The translations under genes were made by a program, and so were the position numbers. Below, piece after piece: positions 6,140 to 18,805 of a DNA stretch of 64,000 nucleotides (positions are counted from its first letter, which is position 1; each line of letters begins with the position of its first letter). The notes under the pieces are model-generated. The model did no database searches. It saw only the letters and a list, made by a program, of their open reading frames with translations, and was not told where the DNA came from. Origin of the DNA: Flavobacteriaceae bacterium LYZ1037 (lineage in GTDB: Bacteria; Bacteroidota; Bacteroidia; Flavobacteriales; Flavobacteriaceae). Location: assembly GCA_003144015.1 (NCBI GenBank), contig QFWS01000001.1:248001-312000 (forward strand), given 5' to 3'.

Positions 6140-6367
6140 TTAATTTATACTTTTTGTCTTGGTTAATTTTATAAAAATTAATCGTAAAAGTAGCGCAAAT
6201 GGAAAACCATGTAAAATAATATCGAACCAATCCATAAATTGCATGCCATTAGCTCCACCTAAAACCCATTTTATCTTCCCAAGAATATGTGGTTCAGGGA
6301 AAAATGGAGCTAATCCTAATGTTAAACAAAGTAGAATTACAAACCTCCAGTCGTTTAGTACCTTCAT
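6140..6367 (-). CDS. Small two-helix membrane protein, conserved
   Basis: A 75-residue protein with hydrophobic segments at about 9-25 and 49-66 and a charged C-terminal tail (KLTKTKS). The motif PHILGKIKWVLGGANG between the helices recalls a small flavobacterial membrane family of unknown role. Its ATG overlaps the trpA stop codon by four bases, so it is probably translated as the last gene of the trp operon. A role in tryptophan metabolism is not implied by sequence. Confidence 0.65.
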   Translation of the reverse strand: MKVLNDWRFVILLCLTLGLAPFFPEPHILGKIKWVLGGANGMQFMDWFDIILHGFPFALLLRLIFIKLTKTKSIN

Positions 6368-7143
6368 GTTTTGTTAAGTATTGATTTTACAAAGCTATCT
6401 GTTTCTTTTACACCTTCTTTAGAAAGATGTTTTATAAAAGCACTTCCAATAATAGCTCCTTTCGCATAAGTAGTTGCTTGAGTAAAAGTTTCATTATTAG
6501 AAATTCCGAAGCCAATAATTTGAGGATTTTTAAGATTCATGTTTGAAATACGTTTAAAATAATTTGATTGCTCTTCTCCAAAACCAGATTGACTTCCAGT
6601 AACACTAGCACTACTTACCATATATATAAATCCATTAGAAATAGAATCGATAAAATGGATGCGTTCAACTGAAGTTTGTGGTGTAATCAAGAACACATTA
6701 ATCAAGCCAAATTTCTCAAATGTTGTTTTGTATTGCTCGTTATATACATCAACCGGTAAATCTGGGATAATGAGTCCGTCGATACCTATTTCAGCGCATT
6801 TTTTACAAAAAGCATCTATACCATACTGAAGCATTGGGTTAAAATACCCCATAATTATTAAAGGAATAGAAACAGATTTTCTAACATCTTTTAATTGGTT
6901 AAATAACACCTCGGTCGTCATGCCGTTTTTAAGAGCTTGGGTGGAACTTGCCTGAATGGTTGGGCCATCGGCAAGAGGATCGCTAAAAGGCAGGCCAATT
7001 TCTATCATATCAACACCACTTGCTTCTAAATTTTGAAGAATGGTTTCAGTATCATGAAGATTTGGATAACCAGCTGTAAAGTAAATAGATAGGAGTTTTT
7101 TGTCTTCTTGTAATTTCTGATTAATTCTGTTCATCATTTTCAA
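6364..7143 (-). CDS. trpA: Tryptophan synthase alpha subunit
   Basis: Cleaves indole-3-glycerol phosphate to indole and glyceraldehyde-3-phosphate; the indole passes to TrpB. The 259-residue TIM barrel carries the catalytic-Glu motif (DMIEIGLPFSDP) near residue 47 and the following DPLADGP loop with the catalytic Asp. The phosphate-binding region near GFGIS at the C-terminal end is also present. It ends the trp operon but is separated from trpB by an unrelated ORF with which it overlaps by 23 bp. The second in-frame Met codon, four bases downstream, is also a possible start. Confidence 0.96.
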   Translation of the reverse strand: MKMMNRINQKLQEDKKLLSIYFTAGYPNLHDTETILQNLEASGVDMIEIGLPFSDPLADGPTIQASSTQALKNGMTTEVLFNQLKDVRKSVSIPLIIMGYFNPMLQYGIDAFCKKCAEIGIDGLIIPDLPVDVYNEQYKTTFEKFGLINVFLITPQTSVERIHFIDSISNGFIYMVSSASVTGSQSGFGEEQSNYFKRISNMNLKNPQIIGFGISNNETFTQATTYAKGAIIGSAFIKHLSKEGVKETDSFVKSILNKT

Positions 7144-7687
7144 TTAATTTTAAAATATCATCTCTTTTAGCAGCTTCATTTATTTTTTTATTCAAGTTTC
7201 TAGTAGATTCAATATAATTACTCCATATTTCATCAAATCTTTTTTGCAAATTATTTGTGTTTTCATTCAAATAAACATCAACATCAGTGTTATGCATTTT
7301 GTGAGCAATTTCCGTTCTAAGTGAGTTTAGATCTCTAATTTTACTTATAAGTTTACCTTTATTTAAAAATGAAATATGATTTTCTAATGTTCTAAACACA
7401 ACCGAATAAGACTCATCATCTTTTATCTTCTTAAAATTCAGTTGATTCGGAAAGATTAAAAGTTGAGTTAATAAGTTACAGCGTATTATTAATTTCTTCA
7501 TTAACGCAATTGTGGTTTGATGGAATAAAACTACTGAAGCAATTTTATTTCCAATTTCATTACTATAAGATAATTGCATAGCTGTTGCAAATAATACGCT
7601 TTCTGAGTTGTTCTCTTCAGAATGTTCATGAATTAAATGCCCTTCAATATTTGTTAAATACTTCTTTAATTTTTCGATATATTCCAT
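7121..7687 (-). CDS. Unknown helical protein with Rx4H motif, inside the trp operon
   Basis: A 188-residue soluble, lysine- and asparagine-rich, probably all-helical protein with no signal or membrane segment. Residues 124-129 (R-TEIA-H, within LNSLRTEIAHKMH) match the Rx4-6H signature of HEPN-type helical domains, preceded by a helix rich in conserved-looking hydrophobics. This is motif-level evidence only, and MltR-like or other helical families have similar strings. Its ATG immediately precedes the trpB stop codon (the minus-strand order is trpB TAA adjacent to this ATG). It overlaps trpA by 23 bp, so it is translated within the operon. I do not recognise a function; see findings. Confidence 0.75.
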   Translation of the reverse strand: MEYIEKLKKYLTNIEGHLIHEHSEENNSESVLFATAMQLSYSNEIGNKIASVVLFHQTTIALMKKLIIRCNLLTQLLIFPNQLNFKKIKDDESYSVVFRTLENHISFLNKGKLISKIRDLNSLRTEIAHKMHNTDVDVYLNENTNNLQKRFDEIWSNYIESTRNLNKKINEAAKRDDILKLIENDEQN

Positions 7688-8869
7688 TTATAATTTGAAA
7701 TAGTTAATATATGTCTCTAAATCTTTATCACCACGACCAGATAAACTCAATACCACAACATCGTTAGGTTTAAATTTTTTCTGTTCAAAAACGGCTAATG
7801 CATGCGAACTTTCAATAGCAGGAATAATACCTTCTAGTTTGCAAAGTTCTAAACCAGCTTTCATAGCTTCATTATCTGTAATTGAGATAAATTGAGCACG
7901 ACCAGACTTATATAAATGGGCATGCATGGGTCCAACTCCTGGATAATCTAAACCAGCCGAAATGGAATATGGTTCCGTTATTTGCCCATCTTTAGTTTGC
8001 ATTAATAAGGTTTTACTTCCGTGTATAATACCTTCTTTTCCTAATACAGAAGTTGCAGCACTTTCGCCAGAATCAACACCAAGACCTGCGGCCTCAATAG
8101 CAATAAGTTTGACATCTGTGTCTTCTAAATAATGATAATAAGCACCAGCAGCATTACTGCCACCTCCAACGCAAGCAATTACGTAATCTGGTTTGGTTTT
8201 GCCTTCTTGTTCTTGTAATTGCCACTGTATTTCTTCTGAAATGACTGCTTGAAATCGAGCCACCATATCTGGATATGGATGAGGTCCTACAACGCTCCCA
8301 ATAATATAATGAGTGTCTACAGGGTTGTTAATCCAGTCCCTAATAGCTTCGTTTGTAGCATCTTTTAGTGTGCGACTTCCAGATAACGCAGGAACAACGG
8401 TTGCTCCTAACATCTTCATTCTGGCAACGTTTGGAGCCTGACGAGCTATATCAATTTCTCCCATATATACAATACACTCCAAGCCCATTAAGGCGCAAAC
8501 GGTTGCAGTGGCGACTCCATGTTGTCCTGCTCCAGTTTCTGCAATAATGCGTTTTTTGCCTAAACGTTGTGCCATTAAAATCTGACCAATGGTATTATTG
8601 ATTTTATGTGCTCCTGTATGGTTGAGGTCTTCTCTCTTTAAATAAATTTTTGTGTTGTACTTTTTACTTAAACGTTTGGCAAAATAGAGTGGTGAAGGTC
8701 TGCCAACATAGTCTTTTAAAAGCTGTTTAAACTCCTTTTGAAATTTGGGTTCAGCCATGACTTTTAAGTAGTTTTGACGTAGTTCTTCTACATTTGGGTA
8801 CAGCATTTCTGGAATATATGCACCTCCAAATTCTCCGTAATATCCTTTCTCGTTGATGTTGTAACTCAT
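7688..8869 (-). CDS. trpB: Tryptophan synthase beta subunit
   Basis: PLP enzyme condensing indole with serine to give tryptophan. The 393 residues are typical of TrpB1. The PLP lysine is Lys89 in [12 protein letters not shown], the substrate-binding loop is AETGAGQHG, and the phosphate-binding loop is [10 protein letters not shown]. The C-terminal LSGRGDKD serine contact is intact. It is encoded fifth-to-sixth in the operon, after a 72-bp gap from trpF that holds a strong inverted repeat (8894-8930). Confidence 0.98.
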
Positions 8870-8893
8870 AATTTTATGTTATCGAAATTACAT

Positions 8894-8930
8894 CGAGAAC
8901 TTTGTGAAACTTCTCAATACAAAGTTCTCG
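8894..8930. repeat. 12-bp-arm inverted repeat between trpF and trpB
   Basis: CGAGAACTTTGT (8894-8905) is perfectly complementary to ACAAAGTTCTCG (8919-8930) around a 13-base spacer. No T-tract follows on either strand, so it is not a standard intrinsic terminator. It would form a stable mRNA stem-loop between trpF and trpB. It could set differential mRNA stability, or be a decayed copy of the TATCGAGAAC intergenic repeat seen elsewhere in the window. Confidence 0.75.
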
Positions 8931-8941
8931 TTCCTTAAAGA

Positions 8942-9571
8942 TCACTTAAGGTGACTTAAGTTATTTTTAAATTCTTTTAATAATTGAATGTTTTTTAATC
9001 CAGATTCTATTTCAAATTGACTGTTTACGTCCAAAGCATCACAGTATTTTGATGCTTTACTTTTTTGAAATCGCTTGAGGTCTTCTACTTGGTCTAAACC
9101 AATACCACCACTTAAAAAGAAAGGTTTTGTCGATGGATACTGCTCTAATACAGACCAGTTAAATGTGTACCCATTTCCACCTGGTAATTTTCCTTTGGTG
9201 TCAAATAGAAAGTAATCGCAAACGTCTTCGTAAGGTGTTAAAATTGAAAAATCAAAAGTATTTTTAATAGAAAATACTTTAATAACTTTTACTCCTGAAG
9301 ATTTTAGCAACTGACATATTTCTGGAGATTCATGGCCATGTAACTGAATAATAGTTAATTTATGGGTTTCAATTTGACGTGAAATATATTCAACTTTTTC
9401 ATCTACAAAAACACCTACTTTTTCTATTTTATCTAAAATTTCAGGGATGGTTCCTTCAAAATGTCTTGCAGATGGTTCATGAAAAATAAAGCCTAGATAA
9501 TCTGGTTGCAACATGGCAACTTCAGTAATGTTATCCGGATATTTCATGCCACAGATTTTCAGTTTCATCAT
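8942..9571 (-). CDS. trpF: Phosphoribosylanthranilate isomerase
   Basis: Catalyses the Amadori rearrangement of phosphoribosylanthranilate to CdRP. The 209-residue TIM barrel starts with the hallmark KICGMKYPDNI (catalytic Cys near residue 7) and carries FDTKGKLPGGNG (catalytic Asp) and the phosphate-binding LSGGIGLDQ. The ATG overlaps the trpC stop codon by four bases, so the two are translationally coupled. Confidence 0.96.
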   Translation of the reverse strand: MMKLKICGMKYPDNITEVAMLQPDYLGFIFHEPSARHFEGTIPEILDKIEKVGVFVDEKVEYISRQIETHKLTIIQLHGHESPEICQLLKSSGVKVIKVFSIKNTFDFSILTPYEDVCDYFLFDTKGKLPGGNGYTFNWSVLEQYPSTKPFFLSGGIGLDQVEDLKRFQKSKASKYCDALDVNSQFEIESGLKNIQLLKEFKNNLSHLK

Positions 9572-10350
9572 CTAATTTTTTTTATAAACGCTTCAGCACT
9601 TTTACCTGCATCTTCAGTTTTCATGAAATTTTCACCAATTAGAAATCCTTTATACCCATAAGGTTGCAGTTCTTTAATAGCTTCAATAGAACTGATGCCA
9701 CTTTCAGATACTTTAATAAAGTCATTTGGAATAAGCTTGCTCAAAGCTTTGCTAATTTCTAAACTGACATCAAACGTCTTTAAATTTCTATTATTTACAC
9801 CTAGCATATCTATACTTGGCATGATAGATTTATGTAACTCTTCTTCATTATGAACTTCTAAAAGCACATCTAAATTCAAGCTTTTTGCTAATTCAGAAAA
9901 TAGTTTTATTTCTGCTTTAGAAAGTATGGCTGCAATGAGTAAAATAACATCAGCACCATAAGCTTTAGCTTCAATAATTTGATAGGCATCAATAATAAAT
10001 TCTTTTCTAAGCAGTGGTAAATTACAACTAGCACGAGCCGTTAATAAATCGTCTAAAGAACCTCCAAAATAATTAGCGTCTGTAAGTACAGACATGCCAC
10101 AAGCTCCAGCTTTTTCATAACCTCTAGCTACATCAAAAACATTTAAACTTTGATTGATAACCGATTTTGAAGGAGAACGACGTTTGTGTTCTGCTATAAT
10201 TCCAGTTGTGCTGTTTTTTAGCTTTTTAGCTAACGAAATGGTTTGTCTATTAAACAAAACCGATTGCTCTAATTGCGTTATAGGAATCAGTTGCTTTCTA
10301 TAATTGACTTCAATGCGTTTATCTGCTATTATTTTATCTAATATGTTCAT
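9568..10350 (-). CDS. trpC: Indole-3-glycerol phosphate synthase
   Basis: Closes the indole ring from CdRP, releasing CO2 and water. The 260-residue beta/alpha barrel has the IAEHKRRSPSK motif (catalytic Lys and Glu region), LLRKEFIID, LLEVHNEEEL, GVNNRNLKTFDV and the C-terminal VSESGI phosphate-binding segment, all intact. Not fused to trpF, unlike in enterobacteria. The start codon overlaps the trpD stop by one base. Confidence 0.96.
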   Translation of the reverse strand: MNILDKIIADKRIEVNYRKQLIPITQLEQSVLFNRQTISLAKKLKNSTTGIIAEHKRRSPSKSVINQSLNVFDVARGYEKAGACGMSVLTDANYFGGSLDDLLTARASCNLPLLRKEFIIDAYQIIEAKAYGADVILLIAAILSKAEIKLFSELAKSLNLDVLLEVHNEEELHKSIMPSIDMLGVNNRNLKTFDVSLEISKALSKLIPNDFIKVSESGISSIEAIKELQPYGYKGFLIGENFMKTEDAGKSAEAFIKKIR

Positions 10351-11345
10351 TAATTCTTGCTTAATTTCACTAGGGTTTTAAAGCTATTTAGAGCTTTTCC
10401 TCCCAAAAGGGATTCTTTCGCTAATTCAAAACTTTCTTCAACAGATTTATTTGTAACAGTTGCAATTGCCATTGCTGCATTGGCACAAACCACATTGTTT
10501 TGTGCTTGCGTACCTTGACCTTTAAGTATATGAGTAAATATTTTTGCAGATGAAGCTATAGAATCGCCACCATGTATATTGCTTTGATATAAAACTTCAA
10601 CACCAAAATCTTCAGGGTTTATCATGTATTCTGAAGCATTTCTAATCACTTTTGTTGGACCAGTAAGTGAAATTTCATCATACCCATCGAGTGCATGTAA
10701 AATGGTGTAATTTTTATCTGTGTTTTGGTATAAATAGCCATACATACGTAATAACTCTAAATTAAAAACGCCAACCATTTGATGTTTTGGAAACGATGGA
10801 TTGACCATTGGACCTAACATATTAAAAAAGGTTTTTATGCCTAAATCTCGTCTAATTGGAGCCACATTTTTCATGGCTGGATGAAATAAAGGTGCATGTA
10901 GTATACAAATACCTGCTTGATCTAAACTGCGTTTTAAAAAATCTGTATTGGAAGTGAATTTAACCCCTAAATGCTCCATAACATTAGATGATCCACAAGC
11001 CGAAGACACGCCATAATTTCCGTGTTTTGCTACATGAACTCCTGAGCCAGCTGTTACAAATGATGCTAAAGTGGAAATATTAAAAGTGTCTTTTCCGTCA
11101 CCTCCAGTTCCACATAAATCAACCGCATTATAATCTTTTAGATCTATGTGAACACACAATTCTAAAAGCGCATCCCTGAACCCGAATAATTCTTCAATTG
11201 TAATACTTCGCATCATAAAGACCGTTAAGAAAGAAGCTATCTGGCTTTGATTGTAATCTCCTTTAGAAATATTTACCAATACTTGTTTGGCTTCTTCGCT
11301 TGAGATGCTTTCTTGGTTTAGTAGTCTATTTAAAATATGTTTCAT
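10350..11345 (-). CDS. trpD: Anthranilate phosphoribosyltransferase
   Basis: Transfers the phosphoribosyl group of PRPP to anthranilate. The 331 residues match the family; signatures are DLCGTGGDGKDTFNIST (PRPP pyrophosphate loop), KHGNYGVSSACGS and PIRRDLGIKTFFNMLGPM. A stand-alone TrpD, not fused to the glutamine amidotransferase, which is the separate gene one base upstream. Confidence 0.96.
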   Translation of the reverse strand: MKHILNRLLNQESISSEEAKQVLVNISKGDYNQSQIASFLTVFMMRSITIEELFGFRDALLELCVHIDLKDYNAVDLCGTGGDGKDTFNISTLASFVTAGSGVHVAKHGNYGVSSACGSSNVMEHLGVKFTSNTDFLKRSLDQAGICILHAPLFHPAMKNVAPIRRDLGIKTFFNMLGPMVNPSFPKHQMVGVFNLELLRMYGYLYQNTDKNYTILHALDGYDEISLTGPTKVIRNASEYMINPEDFGVEVLYQSNIHGGDSIASSAKIFTHILKGQGTQAQNNVVCANAAMAIATVTNKSVEESFELAKESLLGGKALNSFKTLVKLSKN

Positions 11346-11346
11346 A

Positions 11347-11913
11347 TTAACTATTTATCCAGTTTTTTAAAATTTGTTTTCCATTAGGCGTTAGCACGGA
11401 TTCAGGATGATATTGTACACCTCTAACATCATAAAATCTATGTCGTAAAGACATAACCTGGCCATTTTTATCAAAAGATGTTGCTTCCAAATCTTCTGGC
11501 AATTTCGCATCAACAACCCACGAATGGTAGCGACCTACTTCAAAAGTTTTATCTAAGCCATTGAATAGGTTTTCATTATCAACACAAGTTGTAACTTTTG
11601 TTGCTACCCCGTGAAAAACAGTCTCTAAGTTGATTAATTTTCCTCCAAAAACTTCACCTATAGCTTGCTGACCTAAACAAACCCCTAGAATGCTTTTTGT
11701 AGGTGCATATCTTGCAATAATTTGTTTTAATAAACCAGCTTCGTCTGGTATTCCTGGACCAGGAGACAAGACTATTTTAGCGAATGCTTCCACATCATCT
11801 AAATGTAATTGATCGTTTCTTTTTACAGTTACATGACAGCCTAAATCTTCTAAATAATGAACCAGGTTGTAGGTAAAACTATCGTAATTATCAATAACTA
11901 ATACGTTTTTCAT
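11347..11913 (-). CDS. trpG: Anthranilate synthase glutamine amidotransferase subunit
   Basis: Class I glutamine amidotransferase supplying ammonia to TrpE. In 188 residues it shows the N-terminal VLVIDNYDSFTYNLV, the PGPGIP oxyanion motif, nucleophile Cys79 in GVCLGQQAIG, and the His-Glu pair in VQYHPESV. It may also serve PabB for folate synthesis, as in several bacteria with one pabA/trpG, but no pabB is in view. An 86-bp gap separates it from trpE. Confidence 0.95.
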   Translation of the reverse strand: MKNVLVIDNYDSFTYNLVHYLEDLGCHVTVKRNDQLHLDDVEAFAKIVLSPGPGIPDEAGLLKQIIARYAPTKSILGVCLGQQAIGEVFGGKLINLETVFHGVATKVTTCVDNENLFNGLDKTFEVGRYHSWVVDAKLPEDLEATSFDKNGQVMSLRHRFYDVRGVQYHPESVLTPNGKQILKNWINS

Positions 11914-11999
11914 CTGTTGATATTTATTTTTTATTAATGGTCAGATGGAATGTCTATATAAGTTTTCAAGATTAGAAAATTTTTATAGGCATTTCAAAG

Positions 12000-13403
12000 T
12001 TATATGTTTTCTGCGAGCTCAATAGCTTTGGTTAGTGCTCCTAATTTATTATAAACCTCTTGTAGCTCGTGTTCTGGGTTGGATTTAGACACCAATCCTG
12101 CACCAGCTTGCCAATGTAATTGATGGTTTTTACTTAAAAACGTTCTTATCATTATGGCATGATTAAAATTGCCGTTAAAGTCCATGAAACCAATGGCACC
12201 TCCATAAAAATCACGACTTGTTTTTTCGTATTTCTCAATAAGTTGCATGGCTTTGTGTTTTGGAGCTCCACTTAAAGTACCTGCAGGAAACGTATCTGCA
12301 ACTACTTGCATAGTGGTTGTATCTTTATGTTTGTTTCCAGTAACTTTACTAACTAAATGTATAACATGAGAGAAAAATTGTACTTCTCTGTATTTTTCAA
12401 CAACCACGTTACTTCCATGTCTGCTTAAATCGTTTCGAGCCAAATCTACTAGCATGACATGTTCTGCATTTTCCTTATCGTCTACAGCTAACTGTTTAGC
12501 AAGTTCTGCGTCTTTTTCATCATTCCCAGTCCGTTTAAATGTTCCTGCAATTGGATGTATTTCTGCTTTTTCTTTACTAATTACTAATTGTGCTTCTGGA
12601 GAACTTCCAAAGATTTTAAAATCACCATAATCGAAATAGAATAGGTATGGCGACGGGTTAATACTTCGTAAAGCCCTGTAAACATTAAACTCGTCTCCTT
12701 TAAATTGCTGTGAGAATTTTTTTGAAAGTACTAATTGAAAGACATCACCTCGTGCACAATGCTTTTTAGCTAAATCAACCTGTGTTTTATATTCTTCGTC
12801 AGTTAAGTTTGAGGTAGTATTACCTTGTGTTGAAAAATTAAAAGCAGCATAATTTTTAGATTTTATTAGTTGAAGGATATCTTCAATATTATTTTCAGTA
12901 TTAAAACAATGTGCAAAAACATAAGCTTCATTTTTAAAATGATTTATGGCTATAATATTTTGATAAACAGCATAATAAATATCTGGAATGTTTAAGTGAT
13001 TTTCTTTTTTAGAAATTTCAACATCTTCAAAATATCTAACTGCATCATAAGCGATGTACCCAAATATTCCGTTGTTTATAAATTTAAAATTTTCTTCAGA
13101 TTGTACTTTAAATCGTTTGGTGAATTTATGAATGACATCAGTAACACCTTTGTCGTTTCTTATTTTATTCTTAAAAACTGTTCCATCTGGAAAGGTTTGA
13201 GTAATTATTTCATCTTTAACTTTTAAAGAGGCTATTGGATTGCAACAGATATAAGAAAAGCTATTATCACTGGCATGATAATCGCTACTTTCTAGTAAGA
13301 TGCTATTTGGGAATTTATCACGTATTTTTAGATAGATACTTACAGGAGTAATTGTGTCTGCAAGTATCTTTTTATAATGTGTGTATAAACTGAATGTTTT
13401 CAT
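12000..13403 (-). CDS. trpE: Anthranilate synthase component I
   Basis: Converts chorismate to anthranilate with TrpG; the committed step. In 467 residues the N-terminal half holds the tryptophan feedback motif LLESS at 36-40, suggesting allosteric inhibition. The C-terminal chorismate-binding domain shows HPIAGTFKRTGN, ENAEHVMLVDLARNDLS, FPAGTLSGAPK and GAIGFMDF. First structural gene of the operon; the attenuator terminator ends about 10 bp before its ATG. Confidence 0.97.
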   Translation of the reverse strand: MKTFSLYTHYKKILADTITPVSIYLKIRDKFPNSILLESSDYHASDNSFSYICCNPIASLKVKDEIITQTFPDGTVFKNKIRNDKGVTDVIHKFTKRFKVQSEENFKFINNGIFGYIAYDAVRYFEDVEISKKENHLNIPDIYYAVYQNIIAINHFKNEAYVFAHCFNTENNIEDILQLIKSKNYAAFNFSTQGNTTSNLTDEEYKTQVDLAKKHCARGDVFQLVLSKKFSQQFKGDEFNVYRALRSINPSPYLFYFDYGDFKIFGSSPEAQLVISKEKAEIHPIAGTFKRTGNDEKDAELAKQLAVDDKENAEHVMLVDLARNDLSRHGSNVVVEKYREVQFFSHVIHLVSKVTGNKHKDTTTMQVVADTFPAGTLSGAPKHKAMQLIEKYEKTSRDFYGGAIGFMDFNGNFNHAIMIRTFLSKNHQLHWQAGAGLVSKSNPEHELQEVYNKLGALTKAIELAENI

Positions 13404-13411
13404 AAGTTTTT

Positions 13412-13449
13412 AAATAAAAAAAAAGGCTTGTCGTGAATGACAAGCCTTT
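13412..13449 (-). terminator. trp attenuator terminator
   Basis: On the minus strand the 11-bp perfect stem is AAAGGCTTGTC (13449-13439) paired with GACAAGCCTTT (13432-13422) around a six-base loop. A run of nine T's follows. It lies directly before trpE, so it would abort transcription before the structural genes. Its loop and 5' arm are also complementary to the leader segment 13488-13473, giving a competing antiterminator. Confidence 0.9.
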
Positions 13450-13472
13450 ATATGTTGAGTTTTAAATATACA

Positions 13473-13488
13473 AAAGGTTACTTCACGA
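13473..13488 (-). promoter_or_regulatory. trp antiterminator 5' strand
   Basis: On the minus strand TCGTGAA (13488-13482, spanning the leader stop codon) is complementary to TTCACGA (13437-13431, terminator loop). CCTTT (13477-13473) is complementary to AAAGG (13449-13445, terminator 5' arm). The two helices nest correctly and would exclude the terminator. A ribosome at the leader stop would mask the first strand. One stalled at the Trp codons, 19 or more bases upstream, would leave it free. Confidence 0.7.
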
Positions 13489-13539
13489 ATTAGAGTTTCG
13501 AAAGCACCACCACCAAGTATGATTTAAATTTGTGTTCAT
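13483..13539 (-). CDS. trpL: trp leader peptide
   Basis: An 18-codon ORF reading MNTNLNHTWWWCFRNSNS then TGA. Codons 9-11 are three consecutive TGG. It lies between the predicted trp promoter and the attenuator terminator, at 80 bp from trpE. Three adjacent Trp codons in so short an ORF are the diagnostic sign of a ribosome-mediated attenuator; the peptide itself probably has no other role. Confidence 0.92.
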   Translation of the reverse strand: MNTNLNHTWWWCFRNSNS

Positions 13540-13552
13540 TTTTTTAATTTAT

Positions 13553-13584
13553 CAAATATAAGATGATTTGTTAATTAAGCAAAA
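13553..13584 (-). promoter_or_regulatory. trp operon promoter, Bacteroidota type
   Basis: On the minus strand a TTTTG -33 element (13584-13580), a 19-bp spacer and a TATATTTG -7 element (13560-13553) match the TTTG-N19-TAnnTTTG consensus. Transcription would start about five bases downstream, leaving a very short 5' stretch before the leader peptide ATG at 13539. Confidence 0.8.
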
Positions 13585-13594
13585 TTTTAATAAA

Positions 13595-13623
13595 AAAACT
13601 ACCATTTAAAAAATGGTAGTTTT
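13595..13623. terminator. Terminator-like hairpin upstream of trp promoter
   Basis: AAAACTACCATTT and its complement flank a three-base loop, a 13-bp stem, with T-tracts on both strands (seven T's on the minus strand). It sits between two divergent genes, where no terminator is expected. It may insulate the trp promoter from read-through or end an unrecognised short transcript. Confidence 0.65.
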
Positions 13624-13783
13624 AAAGATTACTAATGTGAAATTTTCTTTAGTTAGCTATTAATCGAATCGTTTCAAGTAATCAATTTATAAATGTAATA
13701 AAATCAATGAAATAATGAAGCATAAATGTAATTATTTGTTAAAGATTGTTTTAAAACAATAAGTATTATTTAAATTTATTGAT

Positions 13784-18407: not shown

Positions 18408-18413
18408 TAAAAG

Positions 18414-18805
18414 TGGAGTCGGAGAGAATCGAACTCTCGTCCAAACAAGTAACCAAAGAGCTTTCTACACGTGTATTCTTTTCTTGGTTTTTCGATTGTA
18501 AGCTGGTTAAAGACAACCTACTTACAACTTATCTTCTTTAGTTTCAAAAGTAAATCGAAGCACTTTACTTTCTATATTAACATTTACGATGCCTCTTGTA
18601 GAACGCCGTTAATCAAGGCTTTCAGGAGACATTTAGCTTGTACACCTTGTGTACCTAGGCCAATCCTACTATAATTCGGATTAGGCAGCTAAAGCGTAGT
18701 TATTCTCGCCGTTTAAAAGTTTGACCTAGCCTTTTACGTGTTTCAAAGTCATTACACGACGTGCTTACCGTTTAATTAATCTCGCTGTCAAAACCAGTCG
18801 ACCCC
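18414..18805 (-). ncRNA. ssrA: Transfer-messenger RNA (tmRNA)
   Basis: About 392 nt on the minus strand. The 5' end GGGGTCGACTGGTTTTGACAG and the 3' end ...GAGAGTTCGATTCTCTCCGACTCCA form the tRNA-like acceptor and T-arm; CCA is not fully encoded. The tag reading frame at 18710-18681 reads GENNYALAA then TAA, with Ala-Ala at its end as required for proteolysis. It acts with SmpB to rescue stalled ribosomes. One-piece form, with typical pseudoknot-rich interior between. Confidence 0.97.

Follow-up and report, generated by a model that had tools for sequence, protein, structure and literature searches.

In E. coli trpL, the leader ORF holds two consecutive Trp codons, the RNA strands pair by a 1:2 / 2:3 / 3:4 logic, and the stop codon lies near or in strand 2. 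In the Bacteroidetes, the element Bacteroid-trp (Rfam RF01692) was listed in a 2010 survey of candidate structured RNAs (PMC2864571), a Bacteroid-Trp RNA upstream of the F. psychrophilum trp operon has been discussed as an E. coli-like attenuator (PMC6414381), and the transcriptome of that species gave strong hints that amino-acid operons are preceded by leader-peptide attenuators (PMC9723704). To judge from every sign in the sequence, trp attenuation of the classical ribosome-mediated kind appears to operate in Bacteroidota. The trp locus described here, in which promoter, leader, antiterminator and terminator can all be read, lends itself well to a test, because a literature search found no direct experiment on the Bacteroid-trp family.

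The 64,000-nucleotide stretch of the Flavobacteriaceae bacterium LYZ1037 genome that was analysed (the window) contains a typical member of this catalogued family upstream of trpE (Table 1). The covariance model, applied to a 301-nt region, matches with E = 4e-7 and a score above the curated gathering cut-off of 49 bits, and the element has the expected position upstream of trp genes and a short ORF with consecutive UGG codons. Further RF01692-like matches in the same genome fall below the cut-off (best 29.8 bits) and were taken as chance. The novelty implied by the preliminary description of this DNA is thus absent, the family having been published in 2010 (PMC2864571) and interpreted by comparison with E. 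coli in a later paper (PMC6414381).

Table 1. Features of the trp leader and operon (window coordinates)
Feature	Position	Strand	Details
Rfam RF01692 Bacteroid-trp match	13439..13559	-	59.7 bits, model positions 1-131 of 131
Promoter-like site, Bacteroidota sigma-A type	13553..13584	-	TTTTG-N19-TATATTTG
TTTTG element	13584-13580	-	19-nt spacer, then TAnnTTTG box
TAnnTTTG box TATATTTG	13560-13553	-	read from sequence
Inferred leader RNA	13416..13548	-	predicted start ~13548 to end of terminator T run
Leader ORF MNTNLNHTWWWCFRNSNS	13483..13539	-	18 codons + UGA; WW(W) conserved in relatives
Leader ATG	13539	-	start of leader ORF
Three consecutive putative regulatory Trp codons (TGG/UGG)	13515-13507	-	within leader ORF
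Leader UGA stop	13485-13483	-	inside strand 2
Strand 2 (antiterminator 5' side) UCGUGAAGUAACCUUU	13473..13488	-	holds leader stop codon
Strand 3 (terminator 5' arm + loop) AAAGGCUUGUCAUUCACGA	13431..13449	-	predicted to pair with strand 2
Intrinsic terminator	13416..13449	-	11-bp stem, loop AUUCAC, nine T; covariation
trpE	12000..13403	-	ATG at 13403; first operon gene
trpEGDCFB-orf-trpA operon	6364-13403	-	complete trp gene order

The nearest trpE found outside its own genome is that of Bizionia arctica (89% identical), which places this flavobacterium in or close to Bizionia. Between trpB and trpA lies an orphan ORF of 188 aa (7121-7687, minus strand) that overlaps trpA by a few bases and has no NCBIfam or Pfam match. 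Elsewhere in the window, the minus strand also carries a tmRNA gene (18411-18805; Rfam RF00023, 143 bits).

Direct reading of the minus strand bears out the anatomy first proposed, nearly base for base: the promoter, the 18-codon ORF with three consecutive TGG codons (ATG AAC ACA AAT TTA AAT CAT ACT TGG TGG TGG TGC TTT CGA AAC TCT AAT TCG TGA), the perfect 11-bp terminator stem with nine T, and the leader stop codon inside the antiterminator strand. The TGG triplet run TGGTGGTGG occurs only once in the window, where 0.07 occurrences are expected. The terminator stem joins 13449-13439 to 13432-13422 in 11 perfect pairs around a 6-nt loop (13438-13433), and the last T of its run is at 13416. UCGUGAA (13488-13482) is complementary to UUCACGA of the terminator loop and 3' arm, and CCUUU to AAAGG in the terminator 5' arm; both pairings had been noted in the preliminary description and are present, with the refinement that they belong to a more extended predicted antiterminator. 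By sequence, predicted folds and comparative pairing, the antiterminator and the intrinsic terminator are mutually exclusive, as expected of an attenuator. Folding of the minus-strand RNA, proposed earlier as a check, gives a leader that folds far better than its shuffles (z = -4.1).

Just upstream of the trp promoter, on the same strand, is a candidate small RNA or terminated transcript (13590-13685), in which a stem GAUUACU/AGUAAUC is followed by a 13-bp terminator-like hairpin and a T run (z = -4.3). It has no Rfam match; similar sequence is found in three of seven congeners, adjoining the trp leader in two of those.

Taken together, the Rfam match, the complete trp gene order, the conservation, the covariation and the folding favour a ribosome-mediated attenuator, and the element is very probably a member of the Bacteroid-trp family that controls transcription of the trp operon in this way. 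From the sequence, its conservation and its predicted folding, we infer ribosome stalling, coupling and termination as follows. A ribosome would load on the leader ATG close to the RNA 5' end. With charged tRNA-Trp scarce, it would stall at the three UGG codons and leave strand 2 free to pair with the terminator 5' arm and loop, so that RNA polymerase would read into trpE; with Trp plentiful, it would reach the UGA in strand 2 and cover that strand, and the terminator would form.

Folding of the RNA outside the ribosome is consistent with this scheme. With the ribosome at Trp1-3 and strand 3 just made, the antiterminator has a predicted probability of about 0.95, whereas with the ribosome at the stop codon the model gives no antiterminator and a terminator probability of 0.96, in line with the original proposal that a ribosome finishing the peptide favours the terminator. 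In the model, a ribosome at the stop codon covers the antiterminator strand and a ribosome stalled at Trp does not. At equilibrium, the full-length RNA favours the terminator in every case, with P about 0.96 even when the ribosome is stalled. Since this holds once strand 4 is present, readthrough would need the antiterminator to have formed first, and antitermination would have to be kinetic. The finished RNA without a ribosome is predicted to form an upstream hairpin and the terminator.

Comparative genomics indicates that the arrangement is well conserved in relatives. RF01692 matches at E <= 0.001 were found in 30 of 60 genomes of relatives (own included) and, at the same threshold, in 42 of 395 genomes of the phylum, mostly from the same family. 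Usable flavobacterial trpE loci, gathered by trpE protein search without recourse to the RNA model, numbered 78; a leader ORF containing WW precedes trpE in 73 of them, in nearly every case together with a terminator, and the same search found no such ORF upstream of the other 5. (An automatic leader search had overlooked L015 and L056; these two were read manually.) The leader stop codon is in strand 2, or within about 10 nt of it, in nearly all loci, and the rest of the peptide, apart from WWW, differs greatly from one relative to another. Loss of the Trp codons or of the pairing in relatives had been named beforehand as grounds for abandoning the attenuator; the Trp codons, the stop position, the terminator and the antiterminator all proved to be conserved. 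In one genome of the same order, trpE is preceded by a tandem pair of Trp leader attenuators (L029:96-360), with leaders MQKINTIWWWQSKL and MLNNKINNWWWPVLTQYAGQSCYNII and a terminator after each; Salmonella mgtCBR is a known case of attenuators in tandem (PMC3641672).

Alignment of the trpE upstream region across flavobacteria, likewise suggested at the outset, supports both structures. For the terminator, 98.3% of cells are paired among 79 distinct sequences, and 8 of its 11 pairs show double changes; none of 500 shuffles is as good and no slid version comes near. The antiterminator core UCGUGA:UCACGA has 95.6% of cells paired, versus 4-53% for slid versions, and double changes at four of its six pairs. 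Because the slid controls reach similar double-change counts, the covariation evidence for the antiterminator appears modest, and its strong part lies in the retained complementarity. An alignment-free comparison puts the strand 2:3 duplex of the window at -12.6 kcal/mol, where shuffles average -5.3 and 0 of 200 are as good; among the loci covered by this comparison (L001-L028 without L015), some are less extreme than the window. Three sequences (L015, L017 and L029) are imperfectly registered in the alignment used for pairing (A2), and a swap test was therefore added, in which the loops of eight diverged-loop sequences were paired with their own and with canonical strands 2. Its outcome is mixed: for L028 and L036, the native strand 2 suits the loop better than every canonical one does; for L056, L031 and the second L029 attenuator, it suits the loop better than most canonical strands do; and for L015, L115 and the first L029 attenuator, it does not beat the canonical strands.

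Translation initiation in Bacteroidota does not use Shine-Dalgarno pairing. Here the TAnnTTTG box precedes the leader ATG by 13 nt and, if it occupies the positions -12 to -5 that were mapped for F. psychrophilum (PMC9723704), predicts a 5' UTR of ~9 nt, so that the claim of a leader ATG only a few bases from the transcript start holds as a prediction. Of 126 distinct leaders, the one described here among them, 124 have an exact box ahead of their ATG. The box-to-ATG distance is 5 or less, corresponding to a predicted UTR of 0-1 nt, in 20 of these 124 (about 16%), a count in which the relatives are not phylogenetically independent, the starts are predicted from the box, and one or two leaders depend on choosing an upstream in-frame ATG. 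For comparison, leaderless mRNAs make up 5.5% genome-wide in F. psychrophilum (PMC9723704), and 3.7% of UTRs in Bacteroides thetaiotaomicron are under 10 nt (PMC7366714). A systematic use of ultra-short or absent 5' UTRs by flavobacterial trp leaders, which would let ribosomes load at the RNA end fast enough for attenuation without a Shine-Dalgarno sequence, is a tentative and rather doubtful generalization. Leaderless trp leaders were rejected as a new idea, having already been reported in Sinorhizobium; since the trp leader ORF of Sinorhizobium meliloti is known to begin at the RNA 5' end (PMC7298713), the short leader UTR counts as a detail, not as a novel type of system.

TRAP and T-box control share the same anatomy, a terminator/antiterminator pair upstream of trpE, and Trp might instead be sensed by an RNA-binding protein or directly by the RNA, as in TRAP, T-box or riboswitch systems, with the small ORF incidental. 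The UGG run and the stop-codon position, however, are conserved while other codons drift, and these candidates were rejected because no T-box (RF00230) or riboswitch family matched at gathering score within the window and no (G/U)AG repeat array was seen in the leader; such sensing is extremely unlikely. In S. meliloti, terminated leader RNAs with the start codon at the 5' end act in trans (PMC7298713), but the variation outside WWW, which gives no hint of a conserved function for the peptide, makes it very improbable that the leader peptide or a short terminated RNA acts here mainly in trans like peTrpL/rnTrpL, whether with or instead of attenuation. AT-rich intergenic DNA readily gives hairpins, and another lies just upstream of this locus; a chance arrangement, or a plain constitutive terminator without regulation, is nevertheless already disfavoured by the conservation, and in view of the Rfam match, the fold z-score and the covariation its probability is negligible. 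The ribosome-mediated trp attenuator, as first proposed, is supported by the anatomy, the Rfam assignment and the comparative data.

With E. coli trpL the locus shares consecutive Trp codons, the three-way pairing logic and a stop codon near or in strand 2, but it has three Trp codons instead of two, a Bacteroidota promoter, and an ATG ~9 nt from the predicted 5' end with no evident Shine-Dalgarno sequence; no sequence relation is claimed. S. meliloti trpL (PMC7298713), from another phylum, likewise has its Trp leader ORF at or near the RNA 5' end, although no 5' UTR precedes it there and one of ~9 nt is predicted here. The F. psychrophilum Trp leader (PMC6414381) is also a Bacteroid-Trp RNA before a flavobacterial trp operon, in a different species. 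From RF01692 Bacteroid-trp itself nothing essential differs: the full-length match, the phylum, the position before trp genes and the leader ORF with its UGG run are alike, and the Rfam model, which stops within the terminator 5' arm, is without the antiterminator and the terminator, both of which are examined in the present analysis.
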